From the NCBI GenBank assembly GCA_002938195.1, contig PTKX01000010.1, positions 1-38,501 of the forward strand: DNA of 38,501 nt. Direction: 5' to 3'. Position numbers and translations under genes: made by a program. Under the pieces are notes generated by a model. That model searched no databases and was not told the DNA's origin. It saw only the letters and a program-made list of their open reading frames with translations. Shown here one piece after another: positions 31,802 through 37,587 of this stretch (position 1 is the stretch's first letter; every line of letters starts with the position of its first letter). This stretch comes from Alphaproteobacteria bacterium MarineAlpha5_Bin7 (GTDB taxonomy: Bacteria; Pseudomonadota; Alphaproteobacteria; HIMB59; GCA-002718135).

Positions 31802-32488
31802 GTGACAGATATAATCTTAGATTTTTTTAAAATATTTGGTATAAATATATCTAGTGAAACATTAGTAATATTTGTTGTACCATCTATACTTGCAATTTTT
31901 TTAGGATTTTTGTTAAGAATATCACTTTCACTTTGTAAACAAAATTGGGTTGGAACATATCATAACACAATGTCTTTTTTAATGCTTCCTTTAATAGCTT
32001 TTGTAATAACAAAAGTTATTGCTGGCAATATTCCACTTGCACTAGGAATGGTTGGGGCGCTTTCAATAGTTCGCTTCAGACACCCAGTCAGAAATGCATT
32101 TGAACTGGTTATGTATTTTGCTCTAATAACAATTGGAATATCAGCATCAGTACATTTAAAATTTTCAATTTTCCTAACTTTTTTATTAATTATTATTATT
32201 ATTACATCATGGATATTGGATAAAGTTTTCAAAATGTATAACAAAAATTTATATTCATTTTCATTTTCTGAAGGACAATTACAGAATAGTCTGGAGGTTG
32301 TACTTAATGAAAAAAAAGATGATTTAAGTCAATCAAAAATATTATTACAAGAGATGCATGATGAAGAAAATAAAGTTTATATATATAAATTTTGTAGTTC
32401 AGATAGAGAGCAAATAACAAGTCAATCTAAATATATTTCTGAAAAATACAAAACAAATATTAAAAATATAACTACAGATTACATTTGA
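31802..32488 (+). CDS. DUF4956 membrane protein
   Basis: A 228-residue inner-membrane protein starting at GTG (31802) with AGGA 9 bases upstream. About four hydrophobic segments (18-42, 50-66, 70-90, 98-136) surround the family block GMVGALSIVRFRHPVRN, then ELVMYFALITIGIS. A soluble C-terminal domain (about 150-228) follows. DUF4956 proteins are of unknown function but are often encoded beside VTC-domain and CotH-like genes, and that is the case here: its TGA overlaps the TTG start of the CotH-like gene. It may serve as the membrane partner or channel of that system. Confidence 0.88.
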   Translation: MTDIILDFFKIFGINISSETLVIFVVPSILAIFLGFLLRISLSLCKQNWVGTYHNTMSFLMLPLIAFVITKVIAGNIPLALGMVGALSIVRFRHPVRNAFELVMYFALITIGISASVHLKFSIFLTFLLIIIIITSWILDKVFKMYNKNLYSFSFSEGQLQNSLEVVLNEKKDDLSQSKILLQEMHDEENKVYIYKFCSSDREQITSQSKYISEKYKTNIKNITTDYI

Positions 32489-34794
32489 TTACCAAAAAAA
32501 AAATAAACCTTGTCTTTTTATTGTTCATTTTACCATTAATTATGAGTTTTTCAGATATTTCTCACATTAATAAAAATATATCATTAGAACATTGTAATCA
32601 AAATAATTTAGAAGCTTATCAAAATAATGATGATAATTTTATTTTACCTGAAAGTATCAGCGTCAATATTAATAATTACAGAAAATGGTATAAAAATTAT
32701 TTTAGTATTTTAAGTAGTTATTCTGATTTAGAAAATTATGTCATACCGTACAATCTAAAAGATTATCACAATGCAAGAATTAATATACAATATAAAAATG
32801 GTATAGTTTGTTCATTTAATGGAAGAGTTAAGATTCATGGATCTGGTGTTGATCACATAGACAAAAACTTAGATACATCAACATCCTTAAGAGTTGAGTT
32901 ATTTGATGGTCATATAAATAATATTTATAATTTTGTTTTATTCAAACCAAAGACAAGAAATTCAGAAAATGAGTTATTTATTACTGCTCTTATGCGTCAT
33001 TTAGGTTTTTTATCGCCTTTAACATTTGGAGTAAAAGTTAAATTTTTTGATCAAACATATAAACATATGATTTTTCAAGAAAGATTTAATGAGCAATTTT
33101 TAAAATCTTACAAAAAAAGACCAGGGCCAATACTTGCAGGAAATAAAAATAGATTTGGAAATTCTAAAATTAGAAATACTGGTTTATCAAGAGTATTAAA
33201 TTCAGGTGGATTAGATTTTACAAAGAATGTTCATAAGGAAATAGCATTAAAAGCATTAGATAAAGCTAATTATGGCTATTTATACTTTAGAAATAATTTA
33301 GAAGAATTTTGGGAGGAGATAAATGAAATAACCAACCTACCACTCCCTGAAAAATTATTCTTAGATGATAAAATTGGTTATAAAACAATGGGAGCTTTTG
33401 AAGCAATTTTGATTGCCAGTGCCGGAGTTCCAGGTTTAACTAAAGCAGAAAGAAGATTTTATTACAATCCTATATATGACCGCTTAGAACCTATCTATTA
33501 TGATGGAATGGTAAAAATTTTAAATATTTTTAATAATGATAAATTAACTATTGCTGAAGAATTGCGTACGACTTTGATAATTTCAGAAATTCATAAAATT
33601 GGTGCAATAGAAGCAAGGTTACTCTTATCAAATTTAGATTCTGTCAATTTGTATAAATATCTTAAAAAGATAAGAATTGAATATTTCGGAAAATTTAGTT
33701 TAAAAAGTATTGAGCGCGCTCTAAATGTTCTAGATGAAAATCTAATTAAGATAAAAAATGCAGAATTAACAAATAAAAATATTGAACCTAATAAAAAAGC
33801 GTATTTTGCAAACAATAATTTGTCAGATAAATATGATTTTGGTTTGGCCTTTCAAGAAACAAATAATATTTTTGTTATTTGTGATATCAATTTAATTAAT
33901 TGTGAAAAAAATACATTGAATGAAAATGATTTTAATAGAATTATTACTAGTCAGATTATTGAACTTAAAGGAAAAAAAGTTAGATTTGTTAGAAAAAATT
34001 TAAATGCGTATGTTCATAATTCTAATCCTAATAAATCAGGAATAAAAATGATGAAAAAGATTAAAATTAATAATTCAATGATCATTTATTTTGATAATCA
34101 AGTAGAAATAGAAATTTTTCAAAATAACAGAATGATTAAAATTAAACAAAATAGTAAAAATGATTATGTGATCATAATTGGAAATAAAATAAATGATTGG
34201 AGTTTTTATTTTGAAGGGTGGGGTAAAAGAGAATTAGATTATAAAATTGATAAAAATAGTATTGGGGGATGCATAACCTTTTTAGATAGTTTTATAGAAA
34301 ATATTTCGATTTTTGCAAAGAACATTCCATGCCCTAATGCTATACACTTTATAAACACAACAGGAACTATTAATGATGTAGAAATATTTAATTCTTCAGC
34401 CGATGCATTTGATGCTGATTTTTCTAATTTAAAAGTAAATAGTGCAAATATAATCAATGCAGGAGGAGAATGTATTGGCGTGAAGCAAGGAACTTATTTT
34501 TTTAATCAAATAAAGTTATCTAATTGTGGCGACAGATCCATTTCTTCTGGTGAAAATGCTAAAATAACTTTGAATAATATAGAGGTCATAAATGCTAAAG
34601 TAGGGCTTGCTGCAAAAGACTCTAGCAGTATTGAAGCAAAAAATGTAATTTTAAAAAATGTAGAGAAATGCATATTATCATTTAAACAAAAAAATAATTT
34701 TTCTGGCAGTGTTATTAAAACATACAACGATAGTTATTTTTGTAACAACAATTCTTCCGATATCGAAAAAAACTCTTTATGGTTAAATGATTAA
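32485..34794 (+). CDS. Exported CotH-kinase-like protein with C-terminal beta-helix-like domain
   Basis: A 769-residue protein. The TTG start at 32485 overlaps the DUF4956 stop and is chosen because it gives a full signal peptide (Lys-rich 4-6, hydrophobic 8-19); the next ATG would cut it off. Residues 100-345 resemble the CotH atypical-kinase domain: GRVKIHGSG (113-121), SLRVELF (134-140), FVLFKPKTRNSENELF (150-165), MIFQERF (195-201) and LEPIYYDGM (334-342), which stands where CotH has its metal-binding Asp block. Residues about 590-740 look like a right-handed beta helix with Asn/Ser/Gly turns. It may phosphorylate a surface or periplasmic target. Ten A bases directly follow the third codon. 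Confidence 0.75.
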   Translation: MITKKKINLVFLLFILPLIMSFSDISHINKNISLEHCNQNNLEAYQNNDDNFILPESISVNINNYRKWYKNYFSILSSYSDLENYVIPYNLKDYHNARINIQYKNGIVCSFNGRVKIHGSGVDHIDKNLDTSTSLRVELFDGHINNIYNFVLFKPKTRNSENELFITALMRHLGFLSPLTFGVKVKFFDQTYKHMIFQERFNEQFLKSYKKRPGPILAGNKNRFGNSKIRNTGLSRVLNSGGLDFTKNVHKEIALKALDKANYGYLYFRNNLEEFWEEINEITNLPLPEKLFLDDKIGYKTMGAFEAILIASAGVPGLTKAERRFYYNPIYDRLEPIYYDGMVKILNIFNNDKLTIAEELRTTLIISEIHKIGAIEARLLLSNLDSVNLYKYLKKIRIEYFGKFSLKSIERALNVLDENLIKIKNAELTNKNIEPNKKAYFANNNLSDKYDFGLAFQETNNIFVICDINLINCEKNTLNENDFNRIITSQIIELKGKKVRFVRKNLNAYVHNSNPNKSGIKMMKKIKINNSMIIYFDNQVEIEIFQNNRMIKIKQNSKNDYVIIIGNKINDWSFYFEGWGKRELDYKIDKNSIGGCITFLDSFIENISIFAKNIPCPNAIHFINTTGTINDVEIFNSSADAFDADFSNLKVNSANIINAGGECIGVKQGTYFFNQIKLSNCGDRSISSGENAKITLNNIEVINAKVGLAAKDSSSIEAKNVILKNVEKCILSFKQKNNFSGSVIKTYNDSYFCNNNSSDIEKNSLWLND

Positions 34795-35393
34795 TGAGTT
34801 TTAGATTAGAAGAAAAATTAAATATTGATAATAATAATTTATTTATTTTTAAAAAGTGGCTTTATACAAATAATGCTAAAAAAATTTATGATGGAAGAAT
34901 CATTAGTTCGATTTATTTTGATAATATCAGAATGGATAGTTACAAAGATAGCAATGAAGGAATAACACCTAGGAAAAAAATAAGACTTCGAAGCTATAAT
35001 AATAATTTTGATTATAAAAATAAAGGTGGGCAGCTTGAAATTAAAATCTCTTCAACAGAAGGTAGATATAAAAGCATTATTAATAAAAATAATATTGATT
35101 CAATTCTTAAATTGGGATTATTTGATAAAGACTATGGCACTTGCAAACCTAAAGTAATAGTTTCTTATTATAGATCTTATTTTAATGTTTTGAATATGAG
35201 ATTAACATTAGACGAAAAAATAAATTATCAGAAATACGGAAGAAATTTAACTCGTTTACAGGATAATTCATTTATTGCAGAAATAAAATCTGATAATATT
35301 AAAAATCTGAACTATATTTATGATAAATTCAACTTTACAAGAATAAAATTTTCAAAATATTGTAGAGCAATTGAAAGATTAAAATTAGTATAA
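34794..35393 (+). CDS. VTC-domain (polyphosphate polymerase-like) protein
   Basis: A 199-residue cytosolic protein starting one base inside the CotH-like stop (TAATG). It carries the VTC/TTM tunnel-fold elements: RLEEK near the start, SSIYFDN, RKKIRLRSYN, LEIKIS, PKVIVSYYRSYF, RLTLDEKINY and a late IAEIKSD. Basic and acidic residues at these strands line the polyphosphate tunnel and bind metal in yeast Vtc4. It is somewhat short for the family. Polyphosphate or another phospho-anhydride product made from ATP is the reasonable guess; no polymerase activity can be read from sequence. Confidence 0.86.
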   Translation: MSFRLEEKLNIDNNNLFIFKKWLYTNNAKKIYDGRIISSIYFDNIRMDSYKDSNEGITPRKKIRLRSYNNNFDYKNKGGQLEIKISSTEGRYKSIINKNNIDSILKLGLFDKDYGTCKPKVIVSYYRSYFNVLNMRLTLDEKINYQKYGRNLTRLQDNSFIAEIKSDNIKNLNYIYDKFNFTRIKFSKYCRAIERLKLV

Positions 35394-35455: not shown

Positions 35456-36688
35456 TTAATAATCTAAATATAGATTTGAATATTTGTTTAAAAAAAAATC
35501 AGGAATACTTGCTTTAATACCATTAATTTTATGAAAAGAATCAAAGTTTTTCTTAACATGCATTTGATTATCTGGTTTACTTAACTCAGCATTCCATTCA
35601 TAACGAAGATTATTCCAAAAAGTTTGAGTGAGTGAATTGAGTTCTAATGGATTTTTATAATTTTCTTCTAGCACCTGAACAGCTTTTAAAACTTCATCAG
35701 AACTATTGCGAACTATTTCTACTCCTTTCTTTTTGTAAAACTCTGCATTTATTACTCTAACTAAATCATATTTTATCATTTCCTTTAAATTTAAGTACTT
35801 GTCATTTTTCTTTGCATTGCATGGTAAAAGCAATGTATTAGGTGACCATGATTGTTGAGCTCCCATTGGGAAAACACTAAAACTTAACCTTGGCACGCCA
35901 AACAAAGTAGGGATATCTCCTAATCCTGTGCCTCCATTAATAAAAAAATTACAATTTGCTGATAGCCATATATCTAAAAAATCACTATTTTGTTCAGATA
36001 CCGCATAGTCAAAAAAATTTTTATGTATCAAAGGATATGGCTCATTAATATATTTTCCCAATCTAATCACTGAGTAACCTTTGCCTAATAAGTATTCAAT
36101 TGAAGGTAGTAAAGTTTTTGGATTAGTATTTCTATATGCATGCAAATTTTCAACTTTGTTTAAGCCAATTTTATTATAGTACTCACTAGTCCTATATATT
36201 ATGCAAACAAATTTATTTTGATTAATATTATTTTTTACTAAAAAATCTGCCCCTATTTGGTTTTCTTTTTCAGTAAACTCAAATATTTTAGAATTATTAT
36301 CAAAACAATTTGCAAAATTGTGTTTTTCGGTCATATGCATTTGTTCAATCAAAAAGTTAAATTTAAAATATCCAGATGTTAATTCATTAAGATTTTTCAT
36401 AATCTGAAAAACTTGTTCGTATTTTTGATCGACGTTATAATTTTCTTTGATTTTTTTAATTATGTAATCATTAGGAATATTAAAATTTTTTTTAAAAAAA
36501 AATATATTTTTATTTTTATAAATCTTTGAACTCAAAAAAATATTAACTGGAAAATGGCCTATTCTTTCATTTTCAATACATAATATATTATTTTTTTTAG
36601 AACAAGTCGTAAAAAATAAAATAATTTTATTGAAGTTTTTAATAATAATTAAAATATTTGTTAATTTTGAGTATATTCTTTTTATCAC
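35456..36688 (-). CDS. TIGR04372-like putative glycosyltransferase
   Basis: A 410-residue protein. The GT-B-like region has FVCIIYRTSEYY, GYSVIRLGKYINEP, the DIWLSANCNFFINGGTGLG block and PTLFGVPRLSFSVFPMG, which together fit the TIGR04372 family of surface-glycan transferases. The N-terminal region after a Lys-rich start contains weak hydrophobic stretches, not a clear span. The C-terminal FFLNKYSNLYLD is a family-type ending. It is probably part of lipopolysaccharide or capsule synthesis, with the 2OG oxygenase gene 20 bases upstream on the same strand. Donor and acceptor are unknown. Confidence 0.75.
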   Translation of the reverse strand: MIKRIYSKLTNILIIIKNFNKIILFFTTCSKKNNILCIENERIGHFPVNIFLSSKIYKNKNIFFFKKNFNIPNDYIIKKIKENYNVDQKYEQVFQIMKNLNELTSGYFKFNFLIEQMHMTEKHNFANCFDNNSKIFEFTEKENQIGADFLVKNNINQNKFVCIIYRTSEYYNKIGLNKVENLHAYRNTNPKTLLPSIEYLLGKGYSVIRLGKYINEPYPLIHKNFFDYAVSEQNSDFLDIWLSANCNFFINGGTGLGDIPTLFGVPRLSFSVFPMGAQQSWSPNTLLLPCNAKKNDKYLNLKEMIKYDLVRVINAEFYKKKGVEIVRNSSDEVLKAVQVLEENYKNPLELNSLTQTFWNNLRYEWNAELSKPDNQMHVKKNFDSFHKINGIKASIPDFFLNKYSNLYLDY

Positions 36689-36708: not shown

Positions 36709-37587
36709 TTATAATTTAGCTGGTTTAGCTGTATGTCTATTTTTTACATAATCAGAACACATAGAATATAGGCCTAAAAACCATCTACCTTCTAAATATT
36801 GATCATTTTTGACGCCACCTTTTGGACTATCGACGCCATGGTATATAGTGGCAAAACCAAAAGAACAGTCGCCTACATCTAATTTATCTTCTAAATTAAT
36901 TTTTTTATTATTTTGATCAATGCAGTAAATGCCACCTTCTTCAAAATCTTTTCCTTTTTTTGATAAATAAATATTTATAAAAAATTTTTGATATAAATAT
37001 GGATCCTGGTGAAGTTCTAAACCGCCTGTATTAGGAGGATAGTTTACAACTTGTATTCTGTCAATTATTCCATCTTTTGGCGTGTTGTCTTCCCAACAAT
37101 TCTCAAAATAACCACTTACTAATTTTATAATTCTCCATGTTTTATTTATTTTTTCAAAAAAATCAAATTCATCTTTATTCCATGGAAAAAAATATGCAGA
37201 TTTTTTTATAGCTTTTATAGAATACTTATTCGCAACTTTTTCATCAATGTTTCTATAAAAATTTTTAACACCCTCTGTTATTTTAAAAAAACTACTTTCA
37301 TTCGTATTAACATATTCAGTAATTCTAGTTTTTAAAGAAAAAATAAAATCCTCATCAAATGCTTTTTTGATTACTATGATGTCACCATTAATTAAAGAAT
37401 CTGTTAAATTATGAGCAAAATTTTTATCTTGTGAAATTACTAAATCCTTAAATTCTAGGAGATTGTAATTAACTATATTTCTTAATCTCTCAGGTAATGC
37501 TTTATTTTTTTCAAGCTCATTCCATAGTTTATAATAAATATTATTTTTGTCCTGAAAAGTATCAGGAATTTTATCTAAAATAATCAT
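36709..37587 (-). CDS. 2-oxoglutarate/Fe(II)-dependent oxygenase-like protein
   Basis: A 292-residue protein with the iron facial triad in the expected order: LHQDPYLY (His193, Asp195) and YHGVDSPKG (His250), followed by Arg268 in GRWFLGLY for 2-oxoglutarate. NYPPNTGG just before the first His is a family-type strand. It lacks a signal peptide. It may hydroxylate a sugar, lipid or amino acid used in the surface glycan made by the neighbouring TIGR04372-type enzyme; the phytanoyl-CoA and small-molecule hydroxylase branches are not separable here. No other gene is directly coupled. Confidence 0.75.
   Translation of the reverse strand: MIILDKIPDTFQDKNNIYYKLWNELEKNKALPERLRNIVNYNLLEFKDLVISQDKNFAHNLTDSLINGDIIVIKKAFDEDFIFSLKTRITEYVNTNESSFFKITEGVKNFYRNIDEKVANKYSIKAIKKSAYFFPWNKDEFDFFEKINKTWRIIKLVSGYFENCWEDNTPKDGIIDRIQVVNYPPNTGGLELHQDPYLYQKFFINIYLSKKGKDFEEGGIYCIDQNNKKINLEDKLDVGDCSFGFATIYHGVDSPKGGVKNDQYLEGRWFLGLYSMCSDYVKNRHTAKPAKL

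Follow-up and report, generated by a model that had tools for sequence, protein, structure and literature searches.

The window, as the whole 38,501-nucleotide stretch of Alphaproteobacteria bacterium MarineAlpha5_Bin7 DNA analyzed here is called, carries a DUF4956/CotH-like/VTC gene trio that is real and coupled. The locus is tentatively read, at somewhat less than even probability, as a self-contained and horizontally spread cassette that would make and use a phosphopolymer across the cell envelope. A DUF4956 membrane protein of 228 residues (31802..32488, forward strand, GTG start) is followed by an exported protein of 769 residues that combines a CotH fold with a β-helix (32485..34794, forward strand, TTG start) and by a VTC (TTM-fold) polyphosphate-polymerase-type protein of 199 residues (34794..35393, forward strand, ATG start). 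The genes overlap at both joints, by TTGA between DUF4956 and the exported protein and by TAATG between the exported protein and VTC. The three frames, their coordinates and both overlapping joints are as described in the initial annotation of this DNA, and the layout proposed there, from the cytosol through the membrane to the outside, is likewise supported: the sequence reads as a VTC protein with a complete active site, a DUF4956 membrane protein with an ACT-like domain, and an exported partner of two domains.

Conservation and spread of the cassette

Among 162 genomes of the host order (HIMB59), DUF4956 occurs in 20, VTC in 21, and both in 19 (hypergeometric p ~1.6e-21, with genomes treated as independent). 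A collection of 84,980 species genomes was additionally scanned with canonical exported proteins and their conserved motifs as seeds; the 136 relatives and 78 loci returned measure adjacency given the exported protein and not the frequency of VTC or DUF4956 without it. The hosts of these loci are SAR11, SAR86, Prochlorococcus, Roseobacter relatives, Marinomonas, marine Actinobacteria, and one Myxococcota genome. All three genes are present in 70 of the 78 loci; seven of the other eight run to the end of a contig, and at the eighth (L158) the gene for the exported protein stands by itself. In 67 loci the genes follow one another on the same strand as DUF4956-CotH-VTC (68 with correction for a frame artefact in L155), and intergenic gaps are ≤30 nt in 66/67 and 67/67 cases at the two joints. 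The shared genomes within the order and the gene order held across phyla bear out the earlier claim that the trio is conserved together.

No flanking gene is common to most loci. Recurrent flanks encode nucleotide-sugar epimerases, DegT aminotransferases, dTDP-rhamnose epimerase, glycosyltransferases, and a metallophosphoesterase, and the tree of the exported protein intermingles sequences from Prochlorococcus, SAR86, SAR11, and Marinomonas. The varied neighbors and the mixed tree together give the pattern of a transferable cassette associated with surface polysaccharides. The window protein itself is sporadic, as it was matched in only four others among 385 sampled alphaproteobacterial genomes. 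Retention of the trio in a streamlined host had been called notable in the initial annotation. The trio is indeed present in a draft genome of 1.2 Mb (93% complete), but its retention is less striking, since other marine bacteria with small genomes commonly carry cassettes of this kind.

The window genome carries three related loci, namely those of the window, C1, and C35. The C1 locus (L024:6675-10584) has the arrangement DUF4956-CotH-VTC and adjoins GDP-mannose and aminotransferase genes; its exported protein has a threonine where the homologues conserve His316. In the tree, the C1 and C35 exported proteins are sisters and the window copy is found in another part, and an origin of the three loci as recent duplicates was rejected for this reason. 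The two further loci, the cross-phylum spread, and the β-helix domain go beyond the initial annotation.

Rearranged cassettes are seen at L161 (DUF4956-VTC-CotH) and L180 (CotH gene convergent with VTC and DUF4956). At L136:3503-5113, a second CotH-type protein that has no β-helix is encoded directly upstream of a full cassette. At L095:10-3187 (genome G042), a VTC-DUF4956 pair lies in a sugar-nucleotide cluster, and a 583-residue protein without a Pfam match replaces the CotH gene. The window trio is itself followed on the reverse strand by a convergent gene for a TIGR04372 family glycosyltransferase (35456-36688, 5.4e-48) and by a further gene without a family match (36709-37587). A promoter and terminator scan returned no more than chance.

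The VTC-type polymerase and the DUF4956 membrane protein

The VTC protein passes the curated Pfam cut-off (PF09359, 3.8e-18, 66.3 bits against 23), and the best match of its family profile is the catalytic Vtc4 structure 3g3q (1.8e-12). Its 199 residues form a single VTC domain that is accompanied by neither an SPX nor a membrane domain. Fourteen positions are invariant in 42 VTC sequences (R4, E6, K8, R64, R66, E82, K84, K93, Y125, R127, D140, E163, K165, and K188). All catalytic positions are kept, including R64, R66, and E163, which match Vtc4 R264, R266, and E426, the residues that were mutated to impair yeast VTC (PMC9911596). The intact active site suggests that the window VTC would synthesize polyphosphate from ATP. 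The polyphosphate kinase PPK1 is found in 7 of the 22 trio genomes of the order vs 72 of the 140 others; at p 0.11, VTC as a replacement for PPK1 is not supported, though the window genome itself has no PPK1.

The DUF4956 protein likewise passes its curated cut-off (PF16316, 3.4e-9, 37.1 bits against 30.6). It combines predicted membrane helices and an invariant GMVGALSIVRFR-type motif with a C-terminal ferredoxin/ACT-like domain. Conserved arginines adjoin the membrane helices, and R91 and R93 are invariant in the family alignment. Its AlphaFold model (predicted local distance difference test score, pLDDT, 85) was matched by Foldseek to ACT/Lrp/PII-like domains, with none of the matches below 0.001.

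The exported CotH-fold/β-helix protein

The middle protein starts with a hydrophobic helix (residues 2-22) that reads as a signal sequence, followed by a CotH-like region (~55-430) and a β-helix (~595-735). The family assignments of the initial annotation stood on different grounds: those of DUF4956 and VTC are upheld by the Pfam cut-offs, and that of CotH is upheld through profiles and fold but not by the protein's own Pfam search. The window protein alone gave no CotH (PF08757) match in Pfam even at E≤10, and no useful match in the Pfam and NCBIfam searches. Some of the proteins that occupy its place in related operons do pass the CotH cut-off. The family of the middle protein is linked to the same-position proteins of related genomes by hhalign (100%, 1.3e-46), and the latter, taken together, match Bacillus CotH (5jd9, 8.9e-17).

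The AlphaFold model of the window protein (pLDDT 84; predicted template modeling score, pTM, 0.87) has the Bacillus CotH kinase 5jda as its best solved fold match (E 1.3e-9, prob 1.00). Its second part resembles PL3 pectate lyases in fold (prob 0.9-1.0, though E ~0.02). From the profile link and these two fold matches, the protein is taken to consist of a CotH-fold domain and a subsequent right-handed β-helix. The β-helix is the best conserved part of the protein, and its conserved polar residues recur every ~22 residues and probably line one face.

The metal-binding aspartate of CotH aligns with D340, which is present in all 64 exported proteins compared. The position of the catalytic aspartate (D228 in Bacillus subtilis) is taken by a histidine in 62 of the 63 homologues and by Pro316 in the window copy. 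This positional assignment is moderately certain, given the weak profile and pairwise alignment in the region.

Deviation of the window copy

In the alignment of the window copy with its 63 homologues, the window copy departs at 20 of 66 conserved columns, among which E213 and K684 (and E218) belong to motifs that guided the retrieval of the loci and the remaining ones lie outside them; the next worst homologue departs at 7. Twelve residues that are identical in the other 63 proteins are changed (K203E, E204Q, E207K, D618N, N621H, N661G, D662E, D665G, S667K, K684R, K735Q, and E738N), and D120 is likewise lost. Nine of the twelve changes (618, 621, 661, 662, 665, 667, 684, 735, and 738) are located in the β-helix stretch of residues 616-739 (34332..34704, forward strand), which carries a conserved Asp/Asn/Ser/Lys/Glu ladder. 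The canonical residues are present in L188 and L189, from two genomes retrieved with the window protein itself as the query. A search of viral contigs with the window protein found no relative.

These changes could mark a cassette in decay, in which the exported protein is becoming a pseudogene and the trio no longer serves any function. The loss of 12 otherwise invariant residues favors such a decay, which is nevertheless very improbable. The 769-codon frame contains no stop, whereas ~18 would be expected under equal neutral change (minimum 6 in 200 runs), and the eight conserved cysteines and the codon-position bias are retained, which argues that the protein is not decaying. Its partners are near canonical, as VTC departs at 1 of 39 columns (R185K) and DUF4956 at 2 of 34, and homologues on equally long tree branches keep the conserved residues.

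A second possibility is that the exported protein, the window copy included, genuinely acts as a protein or glycan kinase and phosphorylates surface molecules with a nucleotide or polyphosphate donor. The confident CotH fold and the invariant D340 speak for a kinase, but the histidine or proline at the catalytic position and the loss of D120, K203, E204, and E207 in the window make it quite improbable. That the window's own protein is a working kinase, as its kinase-like label in the initial annotation implied, is unlikely with proline at the catalytic position and twelve invariant residues gone. Many conserved polar residues are lost in both domains and the fold appears to be kept under selection; the window copy is thus probably a retained pseudoenzyme or a repurposed copy with a new specificity.

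Associated phosphate hydrolases

In three divergent relatives, the exported protein continues into a C-terminal family I inorganic pyrophosphatase domain (L115:5932-8730 in genome G112, L122:5776-8721, and L136:5770-8772). The fused domain contains the motifs DGDPLD and MxDxGENDxK and matches solved pyrophosphatases, the acidocalcisomal enzyme included. In parasites with VTC, the compartment served by it, the acidocalcisome, also contains a soluble pyrophosphatase. No other soluble pyrophosphatase of the fused family was found in the four trio genomes tested, and G112 additionally encodes a membrane H+-pyrophosphatase. Faulty assembly and a displaced housekeeping enzyme were rejected as sources of the fusion on account of its presence in three genomes and the membrane enzyme of G112.

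In genomes G113 and G068, a gene for an exported calcineurin-type metallophosphoesterase is inserted between the CotH-type and VTC genes (L032:8952-10070 and L031:2464-3528), and in G113 it overlaps both neighbors. At several further loci, a metallophosphoesterase with a hydrophobic N terminus adjoins the cassette. The fusions and the in-operon phosphoesterases are the best evidence that phosphoanhydrides or phosphoesters may be handled outside the cytoplasm, and they lend independent support to the phosphopolymer theme of the initial annotation.

Proposed mechanism and alternatives

In the proposed mechanism, the cytosolic VTC would make polyphosphate from ATP. The DUF4956 protein would couple or conduct the polymer through the inner membrane, and may also sense something in the cytosol. 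Outside, where ATP is lacking, the exported CotH-fold/β-helix protein would use or process the polymer and thereby modify a surface polysaccharide or an exopolysaccharide. The fused pyrophosphatase of some relatives would remove leftover pyrophosphate. In the window, the exported protein would serve as a noncatalytic or repurposed partner beside the two more canonical copies in the genome. This mechanism is supported by the catalytic positions of VTC, the coupling of synthesis to translocation in yeast VTC (PMC9911596), the pyrophosphatase fusions, the in-operon phosphoesterases, the sugar-gene neighbors, and the pectate-lyase-like β-helix. It is also supported by genetics in Streptococcus intermedius, where deletion of DUF4956 raised Pel, deletion of CotH lowered it, and either deletion cut aggregation in artificial sputum medium by more than half (PMC12345266). 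A bolder version is unlikely: here polyphosphate is exported as a power source, and the VTC polymer passes through DUF4956 to an exported enzyme that phosphorylates a surface glycan, which would make up for the missing extracytoplasmic ATP, with some of the partners being pseudoenzymes.

The principal alternative is a phosphate or nucleotide sensing of the MgtC/ACT type by the DUF4956-VTC pair. The two proteins would then regulate a surface polysaccharide without exporting polyphosphate, and the exported protein would act through its β-helix as a polysaccharide lyase, an epimerase, or a glycan-binding scaffold. Such a lyase or scaffold under regulation is rather doubtful as a whole. It is favored by the strong conservation of the β-helix and its resemblance to PL3 pectate lyases, by the ACT-like domain of DUF4956, a homologue of which has been described as MgtC plus ACT (PMC12345266), and by the same opposite shifts of Pel in the S. 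intermedius deletions. It leaves the exported pyrophosphatase fusions and in-operon phosphoesterases unexplained, as well as the strict linkage to a polymerase whose active site is complete.

Several observations weigh against the phosphopolymer mechanism. A role as an ACT/MgtC-like regulator fits DUF4956 as well, and a fold search of DUF4956 against the yeast VTC channel gave no structural link, only ACT/ferredoxin-like matches. The replacement of the catalytic aspartate by histidine across the family leaves phosphotransfer by the CotH domain unproven. The C35 locus (L023:2076-5074) has DUF4956 and CotH without an adjacent VTC, and at L158:5818-7965 (Myxococcota/Deltaproteobacteria) the exported CotH/β-helix gene has neither DUF4956 nor VTC beside it. 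In S. intermedius, no aggregation or Pel defect was reported for the VTC mutant (SIR_1593) (PMC12345266). The literature yielded no biochemistry on any bacterial VTC of the window type.

If the phosphopolymer mechanism is correct, abundant marine bacteria invest a scarce nutrient, phosphate, in their surface, and CotH-fold enzymes that are exported may use a donor other than ATP. Extracytoplasmic chemistry of pyrophosphate or polyphosphate is indicated by the phosphate hydrolases that are fused to the exported protein or encoded nearby. The function of the cassette may be testable in isolates that contain it (Marinomonas sp. MED121, Brevirhabdus pacifica DSM 27767, and Ruegeria pomeroyi SZCCDBG043).

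Comparison with known systems

The trio has no settled function, and the only genetic data come from Pel-producing streptococci. CotH, a poly-phosphate polymerase, and DUF4956 (with DUF4832 in some cases) form an accessory group of Gram-positive Pel operons (PMC7112168). This group and S. intermedius SIR_1592-1594 unite the same three families in one gene group as the window does (PMC12345266, PMC7112168). An exported CotH protein, a cytosolic VTC-type polymerase, and a DUF4956 membrane protein with an ACT-like domain are shared with the Pel accessory group. The window cassette differs by its order DUF4956-CotH-VTC and by the absence of Pel genes and DUF4832, and its CotH protein carries a β-helix, whereas that of the Pel group carries an FN3 domain. 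A 2025 study reported no syntenic trio copy outside Pel loci (PMC12345266). The marine cassettes are such copies, and a search confined to the 22 trio genomes of the order found PelG in none of them. The compact Pel-free version, which is spread over SAR11, SAR86, Prochlorococcus, and marine Actinobacteria, shows that the trio forms a functional unit in its own right. The window host is a Gram-negative marine bacterium, in contrast to the Gram-positive hosts of the Pel accessory group.

The small membrane protein of the Clostridium perfringens locus NELoc-2 is possibly a DUF4956 protein. It was annotated as tubulin/FtsZ, and the locus likewise contains CotH and VTC proteins and an adjoining glycosyltransferase (PMC2879425). 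NELoc-2 differs in its duplicated VTC genes, its other neighbors, and its unrelated host (PMC2879425).

The yeast VTC complex (Vtc1/3/4) shares the TTM-fold polymerase with the same catalytic residues and couples polyphosphate synthesis to translocation via a basic channel (PMC9911596). A membrane partner and delivery to a noncytosolic space, as in yeast VTC, are assigned to the cassette by the proposed model. Unlike eukaryotic VTC, the window protein has neither an SPX nor a membrane domain fused to it, and no similarity of DUF4956 to the membrane part of eukaryotic VTC was detected.

Neither CotH nor VTC is mentioned in the publications on SAR11 O-chain clusters and HIMB59 phosphate islands, and no account of the β-helix form, of its fusion to a pyrophosphatase, or of the degenerate copy was found in the open-access literature searched. 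The CotH spore-coat kinase of Bacillus (5jd9/5jda; PMC7821199) has the same N-terminal domain fold and the aligned metal-binding aspartate. The family described here differs from it in the replacement of the catalytic aspartate by histidine (proline in the window), in its additional β-helix, and in its export. New here are the CotH-fold/β-helix architecture, the pyrophosphatase fusions and in-operon phosphoesterases, and the deviant copy of the window.

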